The notes beneath the pieces were generated by a model, which saw nothing but the letters and a program-made list of their open reading frames with translations, did not search any database and was not told the DNA's origin. This document shows, piece after piece, positions 369 through 53,103 of a DNA stretch of 64,000 nucleotides (its first letter is position 1; every line of letters begins with the position of its first letter). This stretch comes from Wenjunlia tyrosinilytica (GTDB lineage: Bacteria > Actinomycetota > Actinomycetes > Streptomycetales > Streptomycetaceae). The stretch spans positions 62,194 to 126,193 of the forward strand of contig NZ_BMMS01000023.1 of the NCBI RefSeq assembly GCF_014646055.1, read 5' to 3'. The translations under genes were made by a program, and so were the position numbers.

Positions 369-1034
369 TCAGCTCACGACCTCGCCCGTCTCCGGGCTGT
401 GGAAGGGAAGCGCGGGGATGCGCAGTGCCTGCCCGGCGGCGAGGGCCCGGGGGTCGCCCAGCGCGTTGGCGAGCGCGATCGCGCGCCACAGCCGCGGATC
501 GTCGTAGTACCGGGCCGAGATCCCGCTGAGGGTCTCGCCGTCCACGACCGCGTGGAACTTCGAGAAGTCGGCCGTCTGGCGGCCCACCTCCTTGGCCTCC
601 CGCTCGGGGTCGATGAACCGGTTGAAGGTGACCGAGACACGTGCCCGGACGGGTCGGCCGTCGTCGGCGAACATCTGGTACTTCTGGTTGGCCCTGGCCA
701 GGACGCAGCGGAAGTCGAGGCTTCCCCACCGCACCCGTAGCACGGGCGGCGCGTGCAGGTCCTTGTCGATCTCCAGCAGCCGTACGACCCGGCCGGTGAG
801 ATCCCGGACGTCCTGCTTCACCGGGCTGCCGGTGTCCCAGGTGTCGAACATCAGCTCCATCTCGAGGGTCTGCATGTTGCCGTTGGCGAACTGGAGGATC
901 GGACCCGACAGCCCGGGGACGGCCTGAGAGGCGAAGGAGTTGTCCTGGTTGAGCGTGTACTCCTCCGGGTTGAACGGCACGGAGATGACTTCTCCCGTGT
1001 GTTCAACGGTCACCTGGAGCTTGGCGAGTGCCAT
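369..1034 (-). CDS. eCIS tube-associated LysM protein (Afp7/CIS tube-protein family)
   Basis: The product is 221 aa. Residues 1 to about 150 form the CIS-tube-protein domain (start MALAKLQVTVEHTGEVISVPF, with 'FNPEEYTLNQDNSF' typical of the family). Residues about 158-208 are a LysM fold ('VDGETLSGISARYYDDPRLWRAIALAN', ending ALRIPAL). In characterised eCIS and T4-like particles the corresponding protein (gp53/Afp7 type) links tube and hub, with LysM serving as a structural module and not for cell-wall binding. It follows the 279-aa gene after 42 bases and precedes the hub by one base. The family assignment is secure; the exact position in the particle is inferred from relatives. Confidence 0.88.
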   Translation of the reverse strand: MALAKLQVTVEHTGEVISVPFNPEEYTLNQDNSFASQAVPGLSGPILQFANGNMQTLEMELMFDTWDTGSPVKQDVRDLTGRVVRLLEIDKDLHAPPVLRVRWGSLDFRCVLARANQKYQMFADDGRPVRARVSVTFNRFIDPEREAKEVGRQTADFSKFHAVVDGETLSGISARYYDDPRLWRAIALANALGDPRALAAGQALRIPALPFHSPETGEVVS

Positions 1035-1076
1035 CAGCGTCTCCGTCGGGGGATGCGAGGGGCCGGGACATGCGGG

Positions 1077-1916
1077 TTAGAACACGCGCCCGAACCGCTC
1101 CCGTTGCGCGGTCAGTCGGTCGTCGAGCCGGGTCACGATCCGATCGGTGAGGCGCTCCAGATCGGCCTGCGCGGGATCCGGGCCGCCGCGGGCCGCTGCC
1201 GCCGCCCCAGGGGGATACCCGGGCGGGGCCGACAGCCGCGCGACGACCGGCGGTTGCTGCCCGACCGGGGTCGCGGCGGCACCGAGCCGTCCGTGGACCA
1301 CTCCCTGGCGGCGGGCGTCCCGTTCCACCCGACGGTGGCTGCCCACGACCCGGGTGACCAGCTCGGTGATCACCCGCCGCAGCGCCATGTCGGCCGAGGC
1401 CGCCCCACCGCTTGCGGGCACCGCGGTGCGACGGCCGAGCACGACCCGTCCCGTCGGGCCCGCAGGACCGGCGGGCCCGGCCGACCCGACCGGAGCCGCG
1501 CCGGGCGCCCGCTCGTACCCCGGGAGGCCGACGGACGCCGTCAGCCGCCGGAGAGGTACCGGTGCCCGATGCCCGGTCGGCCACCGCACGGGGGCCTGCG
1601 GTGGAGCGCCGACGCGGTGGCCGCAGGCCGACCTGGACACCGGCACCACGTCGACCGCCGACCGCACCAGGGCCGGATGGGAGCGGGCAGGCCATGGACG
1701 CGCGACCACCGCCGCCGGGGAGCGCTGCCCCCACGGGGTCAGGAACGTCATGCCCGCCGCCCTGCGTGACCGCTCCGCCCTGATGCGGTCACTGCTCATC
1801 CCGCGCGCCCAGGCACACCAGCGGTTCGGCCCGGTTCGGGTCCCGGGCGGACCTTTCCGCCGGCCGCGCACAGCCCGCAGCACCGGGTGCGCCCCGTCGG
1901 CGTGGTTCGGCGTCAC
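1077..1916 (-). CDS. eCIS operon protein of unknown function, Pro/Arg/Ala-rich
   Basis: The product is 279 aa and begins at GTG (1914-1916), overlapping the TGA of the preceding 54-aa gene as GTGA. Such overlap is strong support for translation. Most of the chain is low-complexity and probably disordered, with a short collagen-like run near the middle (GSAGPAGPAGPTGR). Only the last ~30 residues look structured, a charged amphipathic helix ending LTAQRERFGRVF. Proteins of this kind, variable with a conserved short C-terminal helix, occur between the DUF6760-type and LysM genes of Streptomyces eCIS loci; that comparison is from memory. No enzymatic motif is visible. A linker or chaperone role is possible but unproved. 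Confidence 0.6.
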   Translation of the reverse strand: MTPNHADGAHPVLRAVRGRRKGPPGTRTGPNRWCAWARGMSSDRIRAERSRRAAGMTFLTPWGQRSPAAVVARPWPARSHPALVRSAVDVVPVSRSACGHRVGAPPQAPVRWPTGHRAPVPLRRLTASVGLPGYERAPGAAPVGSAGPAGPAGPTGRVVLGRRTAVPASGGAASADMALRRVITELVTRVVGSHRRVERDARRQGVVHGRLGAAATPVGQQPPVVARLSAPPGYPPGAAAAARGGPDPAQADLERLTDRIVTRLDDRLTAQRERFGRVF

Positions 1917-2077
1917 GTCGCTGTCCCTTCGTTGACGCGTTGGTTGATGACCGAGATTTCCGACACCCAGCGGCGGCGGTCGGCGTGCTCCAGATTCATG
2001 ACCGACTCGGGGGGCCAGTGGAAGTGATAAGCGATGAAAGCCACCTCCTCGTACAGCGCCTTGAGGGGGTAGCTCAG
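1913..2077 (-). CDS. small eCIS protein, DUF6760-like, probable CTG start
   Basis: The product is 54 aa, with core YEEVAFIAYHFHWPPESVMN followed by LEHADRRRWVSEI, the hallmark of the short DUF6760-type proteins found in actinobacterial eCIS operons. Its function is unknown; position suggests a tube or baseplate assembly factor. No ATG, GTG or TTG lies between the upstream in-frame region and this core. The best start is CTG at 2075-2077, which overlaps the TGA of the upstream gene as CTGA, equivalent to the ATGA couplings elsewhere in the operon. Its own TGA overlaps the next GTG. The gene is real on conservation grounds; the start codon is the uncertain part. Confidence 0.72.
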   Translation of the reverse strand: MSYPLKALYEEVAFIAYHFHWPPESVMNLEHADRRRWVSEISVINQRVNEGTAT

Positions 2078-2439
2078 GATCCCCCCGCGGCGTTCACCGC
2101 CGCCGGGAACTGGTGCTCGCACCGCGGGCAGGACGTCTCCATGGCCGCGGCGCCGTGCTGGTTCGTGTGGTTGTAGAGCTCCTGGAGGTAGGCGAGGTCG
2201 GCGGCGTAAAGCCCCTCGACCACCTTCGGGTTGATCTGCGAGAGCGAGCCGAGGGAGGTCAGGACCCGCGACAGGATGATGACGATCAGATACGCCTCGT
2301 TCTGCTGGACTCTCGGGTCGCGCAGTGGATGGATCTCGTCCGCGGCGGTGGCCAGCCGCATGGTTCCCTTCCTGTGCAGGGTCCCGTCCTCGTCGGCGTA
2401 CCCCAGGGGAAGAACGAAGTCGACCTCGGTCTGGAACAT
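2074..2439 (-). CDS. eCIS tail-assembly-like small protein with CxxC pair
   Basis: The product is 121 aa, starting MFQTEVDFVLPLGYADEDGT two bases after the tube-gene stop. The N-terminal half (LATAADEIHPLRDPRVQQNEAYL) and middle helix (LTSLGSLSQINPKVVEGLYAADLAYLQELYN) match the phage-tail-assembly-like proteins that follow the tube gene in Streptomyces eCIS loci. The C-terminal METSCPRCEHQF holds a CxxC motif that could bind zinc, although only one Cys pair is present. Homologues of this position in phages are tail chaperones; that role is inferred here from gene order and size. Confidence 0.75.
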   Translation of the reverse strand: MFQTEVDFVLPLGYADEDGTLHRKGTMRLATAADEIHPLRDPRVQQNEAYLIVIILSRVLTSLGSLSQINPKVVEGLYAADLAYLQELYNHTNQHGAAAMETSCPRCEHQFPAAVNAAGGS

Positions 2440-2441
2440 GC

Positions 2442-2876
2442 TCAGGCCCTTTCGACCCGCTCGTGGGCCAGTTCGAGGGTTTCGATGGCGACCTCCGTGC
2501 CCTTGGCGCTGAAGTCCGCGCCGTCCCACTTGGTCGGCCAGGCGTCGAAGAAGTTCCAGCGCACCACCTCCTGGCCGGCGAGGTCGTTGAGGATGATGCT
2601 GCCGTTGCGCCGCACCACCACGCCCTTGGTGACGTCGCGGTACCAGTCGTACAGTTCACGCGAGTCGGTGAGCCCCCACTTCAGCGTGATGTTCGGGTAC
2701 TTGGTCTGGCCGGGCAGCTTGCGGTTGGCCGTGTTGTCGCCGCCCTCCCGGTACTCGACCGGGTCGGTGCTGGCTCCGAAGCCGGAGACGTCGGTGAAAC
2801 CGGCCTGGGTGATCCCGTCGAGCTCGACGAGGAAGTTGAAGTTGCGGTACGGATCCACGCGTGAGCCGGTGGCCAT
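2442..2876 (-). CDS. eCIS inner tube protein (T4 gp19-like)
   Basis: The product is 144 aa, beginning MATGSRVDPYRNFNFLVELD. The pattern 'DPYRNFNFLVELDGI...AGFTDVSGFGA' at residues 8-35 and 'LYDWYRDVTKG' around 78 are typical of the gp19/Hcp-type tube subunit, which stacks as hexamers to form the rigid tube driven out by sheath contraction. Length agrees with the family (about 145-150 aa). It directly follows the sheath gene (24-base gap). Only one tube paralogue is present between sheath and hub in this window, whereas some eCIS loci carry two or three. Confidence 0.93.
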   Translation of the reverse strand: MATGSRVDPYRNFNFLVELDGITQAGFTDVSGFGASTDPVEYREGGDNTANRKLPGQTKYPNITLKWGLTDSRELYDWYRDVTKGVVVRRNGSIILNDLAGQEVVRWNFFDAWPTKWDGADFSAKGTEVAIETLELAHERVERA

Positions 2877-2900
2877 GGGTATCTCCTCGCGGGTGGGAAG

Positions 2901-4067
2901 CTACGTGGTGGGAATCTCGGGGAACTGGGCGATCCGGAAGATCACGAACTCCGCCGGCTTGACCGGGGCCACCCCGATCTCGGTGATCACTTGCCCGACC
3001 TCGCGGGTCTCCGGCGGATTGGTGGACTCGTCGCACTTCACATAGAAGGCCTGCTCGGGCTGGGTACCGAAGAGGGCGCCGTCGCGCCACACCCTGGTCA
3101 GGAAGGCGGTGACCGACCGGTTGATCTTCTGCCAGAGCGGATTGCTGTTGGGTTCGAAGACGGCGAACTGGGTGCCCTCGTCGATCGACTCGCGCAGGAA
3201 GTTCATCAGCCGGCGGACGTTGATGTAGGGGATCTTCGTCGGGTCCGGGCTGCCCAGGGTGCGGGCGCCCCAGACCCGGATCGCGCCGTTGAGGGAGCGG
3301 ATCACGTTGATCCCCTGGAGGTTCACATTGCTCTGCTCGGCCTTGGACGTCTGGTAGGCCAGACCCAGCGCGCCGCGCACGGTCTCGTTGGCGGGCGCCT
3401 TGTGGACGCCTCGCGCGGTGTCGACCCGGGCGTAGAGGCCGGCCATCAGGCCGCTCGGCGGGATCGCGATCACGGCCTTGCTGTCGGGGTCGAAGACCTT
3501 GACGAACGGGAAGTAGATGGCCGCGTAGTCGCTGGTGCCGGCGGCCGTGCCCTCCAGGCCGCCCTTGATGTCCGCGGCGGTCACCGTGGTGACCTCCTGA
3601 CCGTCGAGGATGGCGAACCTGTCCTGCAGGTTGACGTCCTCGCAGTGGTTGATCAGGGCGGTCTGCACCGCGGCGTTGAGCGCCCCGGGCGCCGCGACGA
3701 TCGCCACCTCGTCGATCGCCGCGAACCTGTCCAGCACGTCCTGGACCTCACCGGCGTCGTCGAGGTCCGCCACCCGGGCCACCCAGCACACCGACCCGCC
3801 GTTGCTGAAGAACCCGTGGACCGAGTGGGCCAGAACGAGGTTCCCCGGGTCGAAATCCCCGAAGGCCCGCTTGAACTGGTCGAAGTCCGTGATCAGTTGG
3901 GGCTCTCCGGCCGGTGCCAGCGGGTACGGCGACCCGTCGGGCCGGGACGGCATCCTCGCCCCGGTCGAGACCCCGACGAGGCCGGCCGTGCTGGTGCCGA
4001 CTCCGGTGATCGCCGGGGTGACGGGCACCTCTTCCACATAGACACCGGGTGCCTGGTAGTTGGGCAT
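2901..4067 (-). CDS. eCIS contractile sheath protein
   Basis: The product is 388 aa, starting MPNYQAPGVYVEEVP, the conserved N-terminal arm of phage and CIS tail-sheath proteins. The C-terminal part (YINVRRLMNFLRESIDEGTQFAVFEPNSNPLWQKI, then FYVKCDESTNPPET) is the conserved sheath core that contacts the tube. Sheath subunits exchange terminal arms to form the extended lattice that later contracts. The chain is short compared with sheaths of about 500 aa in many Streptomyces eCIS loci: the variable surface domains between the arm and core are reduced. The gene sits between the DUF4255 gene (36-base gap) and the tube gene. Confidence 0.95.
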   Translation of the reverse strand: MPNYQAPGVYVEEVPVTPAITGVGTSTAGLVGVSTGARMPSRPDGSPYPLAPAGEPQLITDFDQFKRAFGDFDPGNLVLAHSVHGFFSNGGSVCWVARVADLDDAGEVQDVLDRFAAIDEVAIVAAPGALNAAVQTALINHCEDVNLQDRFAILDGQEVTTVTAADIKGGLEGTAAGTSDYAAIYFPFVKVFDPDSKAVIAIPPSGLMAGLYARVDTARGVHKAPANETVRGALGLAYQTSKAEQSNVNLQGINVIRSLNGAIRVWGARTLGSPDPTKIPYINVRRLMNFLRESIDEGTQFAVFEPNSNPLWQKINRSVTAFLTRVWRDGALFGTQPEQAFYVKCDESTNPPETREVGQVITEIGVAPVKPAEFVIFRIAQFPEIPTT

Positions 4068-4103
4068 CGGGGCTCCTTTCGGCGCGACTGCGCCCCGGGC
4101 CGC

Positions 4104-4946
4104 TCAGGGGGAGAGCGCCACGTCGTAGTCGTTGATGGCGGCGGCCGGAACAGTGATGGCCCGGTTGGCCGTCGTGAACCCGGGCGCGACGGCGGTCAGG
4201 GTGTGGGCGCCGACGCCGACCTGGGAGAACAGGAAGCGTCCGGAGGTGTCGGACGCGGTCGACCGCATGCCGTCGAGCGTGACGGTCGCGTTCGCCAGAG
4301 CCGTGTTCGTCCCCGCCTCACGGACGACACCGCCGATGGCGAAGAGCGGCTCCCCGGCGGTCGCCGGGTCGAGGTCGTCGTCCACGACCACCGTGCTCGT
4401 CACCACCCGCGGGCCCACGGTCACCGTGTCGCGCAGGTCCATTGCGACGGTGACCATCAGATGGAACGACGACCGGGGCGGGATCCCGAGCGCGCTCCAG
4501 AACTCGCCGAGGCTCTTGCTGTCATCCGACTGCGCCACCCATGTCGGCACCGGGAAGGGCTGGCCGACCAGCGAATTGCGCAGGTAGGCGGCGGGAATCA
4601 CCGGAAACCGGCTGAGCTTCGCCAGCGCCGTGCCCAGCAGCCGGTGCTCCTCCTCGACCCCGGTGGCGTCCGGCTTCTTCGACCACGCCGTGACCAGGTA
4701 GTCGCAGTCCAGCCGCAGCGGAGGCCGACGCTGGACGAAGACCCCGGCGACCTGTTCCACGACGGGCACCGGATCACGCAGGACACGATTCTCGTGCACC
4801 CCGTACTGGAAGAGGTTCACCGTGGGCTGGCTGAAGTCGAATGCCTTGTCGGGTGTCTTGAACGTGATGTCGACGCCCGCCAGCGACGGTGGAACCGCGG
4901 CGTCCTCCAGCAGGGCGCGCACGGTGAGGTCGAGGTCCTGGAACAT
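4104..4946 (-). CDS. eCIS DUF4255 (Pvc16/Afp16-type tail terminator) with C-terminal carboxypeptidase-regulatory-like domain
   Basis: The product is 280 aa. Residues 1 to about 190 are a DUF4255 domain (MFQDLDLTVRALLEDAAVP, 'TVNLFQYGVHENRVLRD', 'LRLDCDYLVTAWS'). This family includes Afp16/Pvc16, which caps and measures the sheath-tube. Residues about 202-278 are a carboxypeptidase-regulatory-like beta-sandwich ('FAIGGVVREAGTNTALANATVTLDG...TDTSGRFLFSQVGVGAHTLT' type; here SDTSGRFLFSQV). The ATG overlaps the ATPase stop by one base (TGATG). The appended domain could decorate the distal end of the particle; that is inference. Confidence 0.88.
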   Translation of the reverse strand: MFQDLDLTVRALLEDAAVPPSLAGVDITFKTPDKAFDFSQPTVNLFQYGVHENRVLRDPVPVVEQVAGVFVQRRPPLRLDCDYLVTAWSKKPDATGVEEEHRLLGTALAKLSRFPVIPAAYLRNSLVGQPFPVPTWVAQSDDSKSLGEFWSALGIPPRSSFHLMVTVAMDLRDTVTVGPRVVTSTVVVDDDLDPATAGEPLFAIGGVVREAGTNTALANATVTLDGMRSTASDTSGRFLFSQVGVGAHTLTAVAPGFTTANRAITVPAAAINDYDVALSP

Positions 4947-7114
4947 CAGCGCTCAGCCCCCAACGGTTCGTCACGGGAGTCCTCGGCGAGGAGCGCCGCG
5001 TATTCGCCCATGTCGTCCTCGGAGAGCACCCGGCCGATCTTCTGGTGTTCGCGCCAGGTCGCCCGGACGAGGTGGGCCATGCCGATCCGGCCGCCGTCGG
5101 CGCAGGCTCTGTACGCCGACGACAGGACGATGTTCTTGATGTTGCCGCCGGACAACCGGAACCTCCCGGCAAGGAAGGCGAAGTCGACGGTGTCGTTCAC
5201 GGGCGCGCCGGCGGGCATGAACTGCCGCCACATCCGCTCCCGGTACCGCTCGGTCGGCATCGGGAACTCCACGATGAAGTGGAGCCGCCGCAGGAAGGCG
5301 CTGTCGAGGTTCTCGCGGAGGTTGGTCGCGAGGATCGCGATGCCGTCGTAACTCTCCATCCGCTGGAGCAGATAGGCGACTTCGAGGTTGGCGTAGCGGT
5401 CGTGCGCGTCGCGGACCTCGGAGCGCTTGCCGAAGATCGCGTCCGCCTCGTCGAAGAAGAGCACCGCGTTGGCGCTCTCGGCCGCCTCGAAGATGCGCTC
5501 CAGGTTCTTCTCTGTCTCGCCGATGTACTTGCTCACCACCGTCGCAAGATCGATCTTGTACAGGTCGAGCCCCAGCTCCCCGGCCAAGACATCCGCCGCC
5601 ATCGTCTTTCCGGTGCCGGACGGACCCACGAACAGGGCGCACACCCCACGGCCCAGTGCCAGGACCCGCCCGAAACCCCACTGTTCGAGCACCCGCTGAC
5701 GGTGCGCCACCTGGTCGCACAGCTCGCGCAGCTGCGTCAGCACCTCCTCCGGGAGGATGAGGGCGTCCCACGCGTACCCGGGCTCCACCTTGCGGGACAG
5801 GGACGCAAGCTCCCGGCCGCACTGGGCACGGGCGGCGGCGAGGAGGTCCTCGTCCTGCGGCCGGGCGCCCGTCCACTCCGCCCGGTTGCGGGCGGTCGCG
5901 ACCGCCTCGCGGATGCGCCAGACGGGGAGGCGGTACTGTCCGGACAGCCGCTCGACGGCCCGGTCGCCGGCGGTGACCCCGCGCGCTTCGAGCTCCCGCC
6001 GCCACCACGCGCGGCGCGTTCCCGCTGCGGGCACCGGGAACGGCACCACGGCCACGCCTGCCGGGTCCCCGGGGCGGTGCGTCGGCGGCGCCCATGGCTT
6101 CCGCCCTGCGAGGACGGTCAGCACCCGGCCGGCCGCGACCTCCTGGACCAGCCGGTCGTACGCTCCCGAGGCCGACCCCCCGTCCAGCGCGTCGACTCCC
6201 GACACGAAGATCGCTCCGCGGCGCAGCCACGCCTCGCGGAACGCGATCCGGACGACCTCCTCCAGCGGCGCCGCGGCGCCCGCCGCGCGCTCCAGTTCCG
6301 TCACCAGCAGCGGCAGTCCTCGCTCCGCGGCCAGCGCTTCGGCCACGCTGAGCTGAACGGTGTCCGCCGGGCCCATGAAGTACAGGCGGGGGAGCGCCGA
6401 CCCGGGCCCGGCGCCGTCTGCCGGACGCGGCAGGGCCCGCAGCGTCTCCGGATCGAGGGGGAGAGCGGCGAGGCTGCCCCGCGGCTGTACGAACCGGGCA
6501 CAGCGGGCGAGCCGCGAGTCGAGCACCGACTGGCCGATGAGCAGATGCAGGATCTGCTCATCCACCTTCATCGCCTGGGAGAGCAGGGGCTGATGCGGCT
6601 GGTTCGGATCCGGGAGCAGATGGAGGAGACCGTGCCGGACGAGGGGCGCGTCGGCCGCGACCCTGCCGCGCGCTGTGAGGCGCGCCGCGGCCGAGGGGCA
6701 CAGCAGGTTGAGTGCGAGGTCCACCGACGGCCGCCGTCTGGTCACGTCGTCCTGGAGGTACGCGTAGAGCCGCTCGTAGCGCAGGTCCAGTTCCGGTGCC
6801 GCTGCGATGACCAGGAGATCGAGGTCGAGGGGGGTGAGGCCGAAGGTCCGGCCCAGCCAGGCGAGCTCGTTGCCCCGGTCGTCGTCCGGACCGTCGGCCG
6901 CGGGCGCGTCGGCGCCGAACAGCGGCTCGCCGGGGCCCCGGCTCAGCAGCCGGTCGACCTCGTCCGGGCCGATGGCCAGGCCGCGGTAGGGATCTGTGGC
7001 CGCCTGCGGCCCGTAGACGACGGCGGCGGTGTCCATGGCGCGGCCGAGGAGGGCGTCCAGACGGCGAAGCGCCGGCAGGAGGCCGAATCCCTCGGTGACG
7101 CCTGGCCCGTCCAT
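4946..7114 (-). CDS. eCIS AAA+ ATPase (Afp15-like)
   Basis: The product is 722 aa from the ATG ending at 7114, which has GGAG five bases upstream. Longer in-frame extensions lack a ribosome site. A long N-terminal helical region precedes the AAA+ core: Walker A GPSGTGKT near residue 497, Walker B VLFFDEADAIF near 550, sensor ILATNLRENLD near 590 and arginine finger RRLHFIVEFPMP. The family is the Afp15-type ATPase found in nearly every eCIS locus and needed for particle assembly. It precedes and overlaps the DUF4255 gene. A 133-base gap separates it from the 76-aa gene upstream, room for a secondary promoter. Confidence 0.92.
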   Translation of the reverse strand: MDGPGVTEGFGLLPALRRLDALLGRAMDTAAVVYGPQAATDPYRGLAIGPDEVDRLLSRGPGEPLFGADAPAADGPDDDRGNELAWLGRTFGLTPLDLDLLVIAAAPELDLRYERLYAYLQDDVTRRRPSVDLALNLLCPSAAARLTARGRVAADAPLVRHGLLHLLPDPNQPHQPLLSQAMKVDEQILHLLIGQSVLDSRLARCARFVQPRGSLAALPLDPETLRALPRPADGAGPGSALPRLYFMGPADTVQLSVAEALAAERGLPLLVTELERAAGAAAPLEEVVRIAFREAWLRRGAIFVSGVDALDGGSASGAYDRLVQEVAAGRVLTVLAGRKPWAPPTHRPGDPAGVAVVPFPVPAAGTRRAWWRRELEARGVTAGDRAVERLSGQYRLPVWRIREAVATARNRAEWTGARPQDEDLLAAARAQCGRELASLSRKVEPGYAWDALILPEEVLTQLRELCDQVAHRQRVLEQWGFGRVLALGRGVCALFVGPSGTGKTMAADVLAGELGLDLYKIDLATVVSKYIGETEKNLERIFEAAESANAVLFFDEADAIFGKRSEVRDAHDRYANLEVAYLLQRMESYDGIAILATNLRENLDSAFLRRLHFIVEFPMPTERYRERMWRQFMPAGAPVNDTVDFAFLAGRFRLSGGNIKNIVLSSAYRACADGGRIGMAHLVRATWREHQKIGRVLSEDDMGEYAALLAEDSRDEPLGAER

Positions 7115-7247
7115 CGCGGCTCCGTTTTCGTGCTCGTGTGTCCCGGTGTCCGCGCAGATGCCGCGTGCCCCTTCGGGCCCGCGGCGTCGGCGCCCGGCAA
7201 CGAGAGCACCGTAGGGAGCGCCCCGTCTCACGAGCGTCTCCGCCGCG

Positions 7248-7478
7248 TCACTCGCGGCCGTCGGGGGGCGCCGGGGACTGGTCGTGCAGTGCCTCGTACG
7301 CGTCAAGCCACTGCTCCACCACGGCGATGACCGCGTCCCGTCCCGTCAGCGGGGTGGGTTCTCCCGCGCTGCGGATGTCGGCGGTCCGGATGACGCGGCC
7401 GCACAGGGTCCCCGAGTCGGCCTGGGACCATATGGTGATCAGGAGAAGGGCGCCGGTGGCACCCGGGTCGTCAGCCAT
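7248..7478 (-). CDS. 76-aa eCIS-operon protein of unknown function
   Basis: The product is 76 aa (MADDPGATGALLLITIWSQA...), starting inside the last codons of the SARP gene (overlap 8 bases), so translation is likely coupled. The 'ALLLITIWSQADSGTLCGRVIRTADI' segment looks like paired beta strands and 'DAVIAVVEQWLDAYEALHD' like a C-terminal helix. No known motif is seen. Its place between the regulator and the assembly ATPase suggests a role in control or assembly of the injection system. Confidence 0.7.
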   Translation of the reverse strand: MADDPGATGALLLITIWSQADSGTLCGRVIRTADIRSAGEPTPLTGRDAVIAVVEQWLDAYEALHDQSPAPPDGRE

Positions 7479-51520: not shown

Positions 51521-51731
51521 CAAGGTCACCGCGGAGAGCCTACCGGTGTCACTGAGGCTCCGCCGAAGGTTGAAGAAGCTGACCAGGACCCGGTGCCTGC
51601 GGCGGTACTTCAGCGCGGAGCCGCACACCATCGGGCTCCGGCACGCAACCGGCGGGGCCGGCTGTCAGTGCCGGGTGTTCTCCTGGGGAGTTGACGCGGG
51701 GAACCGGTTACGGGACGAGTTGGGGGTCCAC

Positions 51732-51959
51732 GTGGTTCACGTCAGGGAGTACCACCGCGGCGATGGGACACGCGTTCGCGCGCACGAGCGCCGCGCTCCG
51801 ACAGCGGCGGGCGGAGGGCTCGGCGCCTTCCTCCTGCTGCTGCTGATATGGGCGCTGTCGAGCGGGCATATCACGGTCGACGCGCCGAAGAGCACGGTGC
51901 CGCCACCGCACGGGCCGACCGCTGCGCCGGTCCAGCAGCACCATCCGCACGGGGACTGA
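51732..51959 (+). CDS. 75-aa single-pass membrane protein
   Basis: From GTG 51732: VVHVREYHRGDGTRVRAHER and RAPTAAGGGLGAFLLLLLIW, then ALSSGHITVDAPKSTVPPPH and a His/Pro tail. A basic N-terminal segment 'VREYHRxDGTxVRxHxR' followed by one hydrophobic helix is common in small proteins of Streptomyces phages and integrated elements. Function is unknown. The start could be a few codons away. Confidence 0.5.
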   Translation: MVHVREYHRGDGTRVRAHERRAPTAAGGGLGAFLLLLLIWALSSGHITVDAPKSTVPPPHGPTAAPVQQHHPHGD

Positions 51960-52180
51960 TCCGCGCAGCCCCGAAGGTGCCGCGGGCCCGGCCGCTCTCG
52001 CTCTCGGCCCGGGGTCCGCGTGGCTGCCCTGACGCAGGGCGCCCCGCTGACGACGGGGGTGCGGCAGCGGGGCAACCGCCGCGGTAACGCAGGGCGTGCG
52101 CGTACTGACGGACGGGTACCGGTTGTCAGTGGTGCGTGGTCCCATAGGAGGTCATTTCCGATTCACCGGGGGGTGGAACG

Positions 52181-52408
52181 TTGGGGACGCTGGCTGTCCT
52201 GTGGGGCTTATGGGCGATCGGTGCGGCGGCGGTGGCGACGTGCGGGGGCTGGACCCGCGCTGAGGGGCGGTGCCGCAATCCGAGGAAGGGCCTGTTCAAC
52301 CGCTGCCAGCACCACGGCTGGCAGCTGGTCACCGGCACGGACGTGCTGGTGGTGGTGCTGTGCTGGGTCGGCTACCAGATCGTCACGCACTACGGCGGCG
52401 GCTCGTGA
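52181..52408 (+). CDS. 75-aa membrane protein with Cys/His cluster, upstream partner of nuclease
   Basis: The protein starts TTG 52181; no ATG or GTG lies in frame near the GGGGGG upstream. One hydrophobic helix (LAVLWGLWAIGAAAVATCGG) is followed by a Cys/His-rich loop (TRAEGRCRNPRKGLFNRCQH, HGW) that could bind zinc, and a second helix (TGTDVLVVVLCWVGYQIV). The stop overlaps the nuclease GTG, so both are made together. Confidence 0.65.
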   Translation: MGTLAVLWGLWAIGAAAVATCGGWTRAEGRCRNPRKGLFNRCQHHGWQLVTGTDVLVVVLCWVGYQIVTHYGGGS

Positions 52409-53103
52409 GCGCCCGCCGTCCCCCCGCGCGGCGGGGCTCGAGGAAGCGGCGGTCCGCGAAGAACGCCGACGGTGAGGCTCTGCTGGTCCTGTCCGTGGCG
52501 GCGGTGGCGCTGGTGGCGGCCGTGGCCGCGGTGCGGTGGCTGCTGGAGCACTGGTGGCTGCTGGTCCTGGCCGCGGCGGTCGCGGCCTGCGTCGGCGGAG
52601 CATGGGGGCATCGGCGCTCGCAGCGGCTGCAGTGGGAGCGGGTGCAGACCCGGGCGCTGCGGTACCAGCTCACCCAGCTCGACGCGCTGCACCACCGGCA
52701 GTTCGAGTTCGCCGTGCGGGATCTGATGCGGCGCGACGGCTGCCCGCAGGCCCAGCAGGTGGGCGGGCGCGGCGACAACGGCGCCGACGTGCTGGCCACC
52801 GACCCGCTCGGGAGGCGCTGGGTCATCCAGTGCAAGCACCGGCAAGCCGGTCTGGCCGGATCCGCCATAGGCACCCCCGACCTGCAGGTGCTCAACGGCA
52901 CCGGGCGCCCTGTCCACAAAGGCGACGTCGTGGTGCTGGTGACCAACGGACGGTTCACCGCCCCCGCCGTCACCTTCGGGCGGCAGCAGAAGCTGCACCT
53001 GGTGGACCGCCACCTCCTGGGCCAGTGGGCCGCCGGCTCCCGCCCGCTGTGGGAACTGCTCGACCGGATCCCCCCGCCACGTCGTCCCACCGCGCTGTCG
53101 TAG
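52405..53103 (+). CDS. membrane-anchored Mrr-like restriction endonuclease
   Basis: The product is 232 aa from GTG 52405. Two hydrophobic helices at about 27-68 (LLVLSVAAVALVAAVAAVRW; HWWLLVLAAAVAACVGG) precede an Mrr_cat-type PD-(D/E)xK domain: helix FEFAVRDLMRRDGC, GDNGADVLATDPLG with Asp128, and WVIQCKH with Gln142 and Lys144. Mrr enzymes cut modified or foreign DNA. The nuclease domain would face the cytoplasm at the membrane, and coupling to the small Cys/His membrane protein suggests a two-part module, perhaps against incoming DNA. Confidence 0.82.
   Translation: MSARRPPARRGSRKRRSAKNADGEALLVLSVAAVALVAAVAAVRWLLEHWWLLVLAAAVAACVGGAWGHRRSQRLQWERVQTRALRYQLTQLDALHHRQFEFAVRDLMRRDGCPQAQQVGGRGDNGADVLATDPLGRRWVIQCKHRQAGLAGSAIGTPDLQVLNGTGRPVHKGDVVVLVTNGRFTAPAVTFGRQQKLHLVDRHLLGQWAAGSRPLWELLDRIPPPRRPTALS

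Follow-up and report, generated by a model that had tools for sequence, protein, structure and literature searches.

A predicted membrane-anchored Mrr-type nuclease with exchangeable small partners and RecA-NDp-like promoter sites in Streptomycetaceae

INTRODUCTION

Nucleases that work at membranes, and nucleases of the Mrr type, are both represented among described systems. RmuC is a membrane-anchored PD-(D/E)XK-like nuclease, and Zorya also couples membrane proteins to nuclease action. At the position of the predicted membrane hairpin of the nuclease described here, Mrr-type type IV restriction enzymes carry a DNA-reading domain.

The promoter type found at the present locus belongs to the RecA-NDp/PafBC regulon, which is known for repair genes. 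The RecA-NDp consensus is given as tTGTCRgtg-8-TannnT (PMC5656591), SCO6735 of S. coelicolor, which lies behind a RecA-NDp promoter, rises five-fold after UV (PMC5087735), and in mycobacteria the signal that activates PafBC is single-stranded DNA (PMC11804915). An initial search in a study with published mitomycin C RNA-seq data suggested that the PafBC motif of M. smegmatis is not conserved in S. venezuelae (PMC9380542).

Here, we analyze a locus within a 64,000-nt stretch of the Wenjunlia tyrosinilytica genome (contig NZ_BMMS01000023.1, positions 62,194 to 126,193, forward strand), which we refer to as the window. An Mrr-type nuclease gene (C) is preceded there by two genes for small proteins (A and B), and we compare this arrangement with those surrounding related nucleases in other genomes and on plasmids.

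RESULTS

Anatomy of the locus

The locus in the window is a three-gene module, A-B-C, and its anatomy is firm (Table 1). The original prediction described B and C as overlapping by four bases, and both genes lie where it placed them, with a common GTGA; it missed gene A, as well as the two promoter-like sites that precede A and B. The distribution of charges suggests, according to the positive-inside rule, a cytoplasmic orientation for three parts: the A motif, the B loop, and the nuclease of C.

Table 1. Features of the A-B-C locus (positions within the window)
Feature	Position	Strand	Description
RecA-NDp-like site before A	51662..51684	+	CTGTCAGTG-N8-TCTCCT; 10 of 12 consensus letters
Gene A	51732..51959	+	75 aa, GTG start; YxRxDGTxVRxHxR motif followed by a single predicted membrane helix (residues 24-42)
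RecA-NDp-like site before B	52123..52145	+	TTGTCAGTG-N8-TCCCAT; 11 of 12 consensus letters, all but the A of the -10 box
Gene B	52181..52408	+	75 aa, TTG start; basic Cys-X9-Cys-X10-Cys-X2-His loop flanked by two predicted membrane helices
Putative metal loop of B, Cys21 to His45	52241..52315	+	All four putative ligands unchanged in 9 of 9 B proteins
Gene C	52405..53103	+	232 aa, GTG start; Pfam Mrr_cat, structure model, fold matches
Mrr catalytic domain of C, residues 92-208	52678..53028	+	Includes Asp128, Gln142, and Lys144

By sequence, C belongs to the Mrr_cat family, matching Pfam PF04471 at 74.7 bits (cutoff, 21; E = 8.5e-21) over residues 92-208. The original prediction had called C a membrane-anchored Mrr nuclease with Asp128, Gln142, and Lys144 in place, and this description is supported: all of the aligned relatives (45 of 45) have these three residues, as well as Glu101 and Asp124, and two hydrophobic segments (residues 25-43 and 46-64) coincide with a helix hairpin. 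In the structure model (mean pLDDT, 90.5; pTM, 0.74), helices spanning residues 18-48 and 50-83 are followed by the nuclease domain. C can be described as an Mrr-type PD-(D/E)XK nuclease with a hairpin at its N terminus that would anchor it at the inner face of the membrane.

Comparison of folds places the nuclease part of C among several kinds of enzymes. When the Foldseek matches were compared a second time, the best alignment of this part was with AF1548 (Z = 14.3; rmsd, 2.3; 112 residues), the next matches include, among others, a Can2 nuclease (Z = 11.1), MspJI (10.8), and AspBHI (10.4), and the list also includes repair nucleases and Holliday junction resolvases, a common fold being no proof of function. 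A sequence search of the PDB with C returned zero matches at E ≤ 1. Among the Pfam matches of C at E ≤ 1 there is neither a separate DNA-reading domain, the N-terminal part being a helix hairpin in the model, nor an RmuC profile. In its action, C would at most resemble a type IV restriction enzyme.

In B, hydrophobic segments at residues 4-22 and 50-68 flank a basic loop. The original prediction saw a possible zinc loop here, and the Cys/His loop between the helices stands: Cys21, Cys31, Cys42, and His45 show no variation in 9 of 9 B proteins, which matches what a putative metal site requires. Metal binding itself is putative, and the structure model of B is poor (pLDDT, 69), such that the site is not assessable from it. 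The HGGxSTG domain (NCBIfam NF041373) scores 11.5 bits against B and 22.6 bits (E = 6.1e-5) against the best of its relatives, both under the cutoff of 29.

Gene A has fewer affinities to described families. For residues 6-75 (51747-51956), Pfam and NCBIfam gave no match at E ≤ 1, and the whole protein matches no PHROGs family. The association of A with C is close: at E ≤ 1e-10, A was found at 30 places in 150 genomes, of which 29 adjoin C, while the last one lies at a contig end; the profile itself included 11 of these 30 places as rows, and of the remaining 19, 18 adjoin C. At the same threshold, the search of 394 genomes of the class recovered A only within the family to which the window belongs.

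Exchange of partners and conservation of the B-C pair

We read 76 distinct C loci, a hand-chosen and non-random sample composed of the window, five plasmid regions, the loci of the best matches to C in 297 Streptomycetaceae genomes, 40 regions picked from the matches of that search, and loci added through B; these remained from 87 records after the removal of five duplicates and six records without C. Partners were assigned by iterated profiles and by reading of the loci. A partner adjoins C in 59 of the 76 loci, this being A in 36, D in 18, B in 3, and both A and B in 2 (the window and genome G029), and the other 17 loci have no recognized partner. In those 59 loci, the partners stand upstream of C and are small and co-directional, and they often overlap C. 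D constitutes an unrelated two-helix family with the motif RLRRRTxxRSRxDE between its helices. The usual partner of C is A or D, and B is a minority partner.

Partner type does not follow the relationships of the nucleases. On a tree of the 76 nuclease domains, constructed by a quick method that leaves many forks open, there are at least seven changes of partner type, and a single clade of 16 C loci (starred on the tree) contains eight loci with A and eight with D. Partners have been repeatedly swapped on this tree.

These counts bear on the two-gene module of B and C envisaged by the original prediction. The B-C pair is real, but the two-gene model was rejected as a general one because A or D usually partners C, and the window contains A as well. 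When B was searched for in 297 Streptomycetaceae genomes, there were nine strong places, all of them also profile rows; five of the nine adjoin C, three are without C in the 3.2 kb read, and one is at a contig edge, with the C match of the same genome near the edge of a different contig. The 394 genomes of the class yielded five further strong B places in another family, and in four of the five, B comes directly after C, whereas in the window it comes before. Recurrence of the B-C neighborhood in other genomes indicates that the pair did not arise by chance, its presence in five of nine Streptomycetaceae cases and four of five cases in the other family shows that it is conserved across the two, and its retention despite the flipped order argues for a working link. 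A plasmid search with the single B sequence returned zero matches.

Several loci depart from these arrangements. Two genomes (L096 and L098, in G003 and G019) have B without the nuclease, in the same arrangement in both, with B adjoining a membrane protein for which several helices are predicted and a protein that has a single hydrophobic segment at its N terminus. Two genomes have several nuclease copies each, partly in tandem: three C-like stretches occur within 5 kb at L054 (G192), and genome G154 by itself has eight C-like matches. At L077 (G046:C7), the start of the nuclease gene is overlapped by a gene for what we take to be an FtsK/TraB-type DNA transfer protein.

Promoter-like sites upstream of A and B

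Both sites in the window stand out against their surroundings. The site before B, which starts 58 bases ahead of the start of B, has the top score of the 64 kb on both strands, and the site before A shares its score of 10 of 12 letters with three other places in the window, again counting both strands. The sequence TGTCAGTG occurs in the window, on either strand, solely at these two sites, with 1.75 occurrences expected. The -10 boxes are imperfect, reading TCCCAT before B and TCTCCT before A.

Such sites recur at other C loci according to the type of partner. Sites with at least 10 of the 12 letters lie 600 to 150 bases before C in 31 of the 76 loci, versus 0.75 of 76 in shuffled sequences and 0 of 76 downstream; they are present at 27 of the 38 A loci (including those with both A and B) and at 0 of the 18 D loci. 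Positions that were unused in picking the sites, among them a TG before the -10 box and the last T of the -10 box, are also conserved, to a degree that is inflated by related loci. TGTCRGTG is absent from the stretches read at all five B loci of the other family.

The genome that contains the window has the exact consensus six times, versus zero for a reversed control pattern, and the genes following these sites are presumably uvrB, rpsF, and others. The rpsF gene, which encodes ribosomal protein S6, is the usual neighbor of ssb. Two tandem WYL genes in the same genome are candidates for pafB and pafC.

In its A and B forms, the module probably has a RecA-NDp-like promoter upstream, and the sites before A and B indicate that these genes are probably induced by damage or by single-stranded DNA via PafBC. 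They suggest a nuclease that is induced under such circumstances and not one that serves as a constant gatekeeper.

Two further sequence elements were noted. A conserved stretch around TGCCATT upstream of D may be another regulatory site (L005, L008, L012, L013, L015, L019, L031, and L035). At L092 (G000:C39:28066-28088), an exact RecA-NDp consensus lies 31 bases ahead of a gene that we presume to encode a Cas3-type HD/helicase protein.

Distribution and genomic neighborhood

At E ≤ 0.001, C-like matches occur in 226 of the 297 Streptomycetaceae genomes, many of these matches being distant, and 171 of 72,556 plasmid records contain a C-like match, 161 of which are from Streptomyces. The laboratory strain S. 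venezuelae NRRL B-65442 has a copy on plasmid pSVJI1, with the nuclease gene vnz_RS37415 and an A partner, and its derivative SS-292, cured of this plasmid, has been described (PMC8788739).

Pfam searches recognized no methyltransferase and no defense neighbor among the 15 ORFs neighboring the locus in the window, and the lack of a methyltransferase in these 15 ORFs makes a standard restriction-modification system unlikely; on two plasmids, a methyltransferase lies 3 kb or more from a C-type locus. A phage origin was rejected because the phage collection gave only two distant matches, with under 32% identity. The flanking abhydrolase gene had only distant relatives in three genomes, so that no empty site was readable. 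Judged by titles and the openings of abstracts, none of the papers listed in the literature searches describes the module.

Elsewhere in the window, a run of genes on the minus strand (369-7306) resembles, by eye, the parts of a phage tail or contractile injection apparatus, including a sheath-like start.

DISCUSSION

The reading that we favor, to which we assign slightly less than an even chance, is that A, B, and C form a damage-induced, membrane-tethered, type IV-like nuclease module directed against foreign DNA. PafBC, once activated by damage or by the single strands that an invading phage or plasmid exposes, would raise A, B, and C. A and B, as small membrane proteins, would place short segments rich in Arg and His or in Cys and His on the membrane face where C lies and, by way of a presumed protein contact, would recruit, gate, or hold back the nuclease. 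C would then cut at the membrane, its most likely target being foreign or abnormal DNA, in a form of type IV-like restriction or abortive defense. We infer induction from the promoter-like sites, and the foreign target from membership in the Mrr family, the absence of a methyltransferase from the 15 ORFs, the patchy and plasmid-rich distribution, and the exchange of partners. Several observations speak against this reading: the imperfect -10 boxes, the missing sites at D loci and at the five B loci of the other family, the search that suggested no conservation of the M. smegmatis motif in S. venezuelae, the 17 C loci with no recognized partner, the three strong Streptomycetaceae B places without C in the 3.2 kb read, the lack of recognized defense neighbors among the 15 ORFs, and the restriction of PADLOC matches to the nuclease domain.

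Some of the same features would be expected of a toxin-antitoxin or plasmid maintenance system, in which C would be a DNA-cutting toxin kept inactive in the membrane by the A, B, or D protein encoded upstream. Small, co-directional upstream partners that often overlap C (the 59 of 76 loci with a partner), a single type of effector with unrelated and exchangeable partners, the 171 plasmid records, and the adjacency of the C locus to partition genes on two small plasmids are all consistent with it. We nevertheless regard this explanation as unlikely: damage would induce A, B, and C alike, which is unusual for a maintenance pair, B comes after C in the other family, copies reside also on chromosome-sized contigs, and 17 of the 76 C loci are without a recognized partner.

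Slightly less likely again is a role in DNA repair or clearance, by which a damage-induced nuclease, like other RecA-NDp genes, would deal with host DNA that is broken or cross-linked, in the vicinity of the membrane. The patchy, plasmid-rich distribution and the exchangeable partners are atypical of core repair, and the promoter is missing at D loci and at the loci of reversed order, whereas a promoter type common to repair genes and a list of fold matches made up in part of repair nucleases and Holliday junction resolvases point toward such a role. The constant gatekeeper of the original prediction, an always-present membrane nuclease that would cut DNA entering by phage injection or TraB-type double-stranded transfer independently of damage, is the least probable of the three, since a damage-type promoter site occurs in 27 of 38 A loci, even though the membrane anchor with its nuclease predicted on the cytoplasmic side, the carriage on plasmids, and the D loci without a damage promoter would accord with it.

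If the locus is indeed a damage-induced module aimed at foreign DNA, then a gene whose sole name in the plasmid records (171, including 161 from Streptomyces) is "restriction endonuclease" would be recast as the effector of a defined module, which is anchored in the membrane, draws on exchangeable partners, and is probably under damage control. PafBC, known for repair, would be tied to the control of foreign DNA, and the module would offer a direct test case of whether bacteria station nucleases at the membrane against incoming double-stranded DNA. A broader proposal, which we consider less likely than not, is that the module represents a new, inducible, membrane-sited class of defense that is widespread on Streptomyces plasmids, in which a tethered Mrr nuclease would be combined with interchangeable tiny membrane proteins of three unrelated families that sense or gate invading DNA, PafBC, as a sensor of single-stranded DNA, would act as the switch, and double-stranded DNA delivered by TraB-type conjugation of Streptomyces could be cut at the membrane.

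Each of the known systems resembles this module only in part. The sites before A and B, with 10 and 11 of 12 letters, liken it to the RecA-NDp/PafBC regulon, but that regulon is known for repair genes and the -10 boxes at A and B are imperfect. The loop of B has a Cys-Gly...Cys...Cys-x2-His spacing comparable to that of the HGGxSTG domain but sits between two membrane helices and scores under the cutoff. RmuC shares the idea of a membrane-tethered nuclease, whereas C lacks an RmuC Pfam match and has small membrane partners. The phage defense candidate PDC-S02 of PADLOC and ZorD of Zorya contain an Mrr-like nuclease domain (E = 1.2e-7 and 5.4e-7), but these matches are partial, covering only the nuclease part of C, and the C module has tiny partners and no recognized motor protein. 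Mrr-type type IV enzymes, represented by MspJI and AspBHI on the basis of fold, share the catalytic domain, its Asp...Gln-x-Lys signature, and the lack of a partner methyltransferase among the scanned neighbors of C; C differs from them in its predicted membrane hairpin and its small membrane partners.
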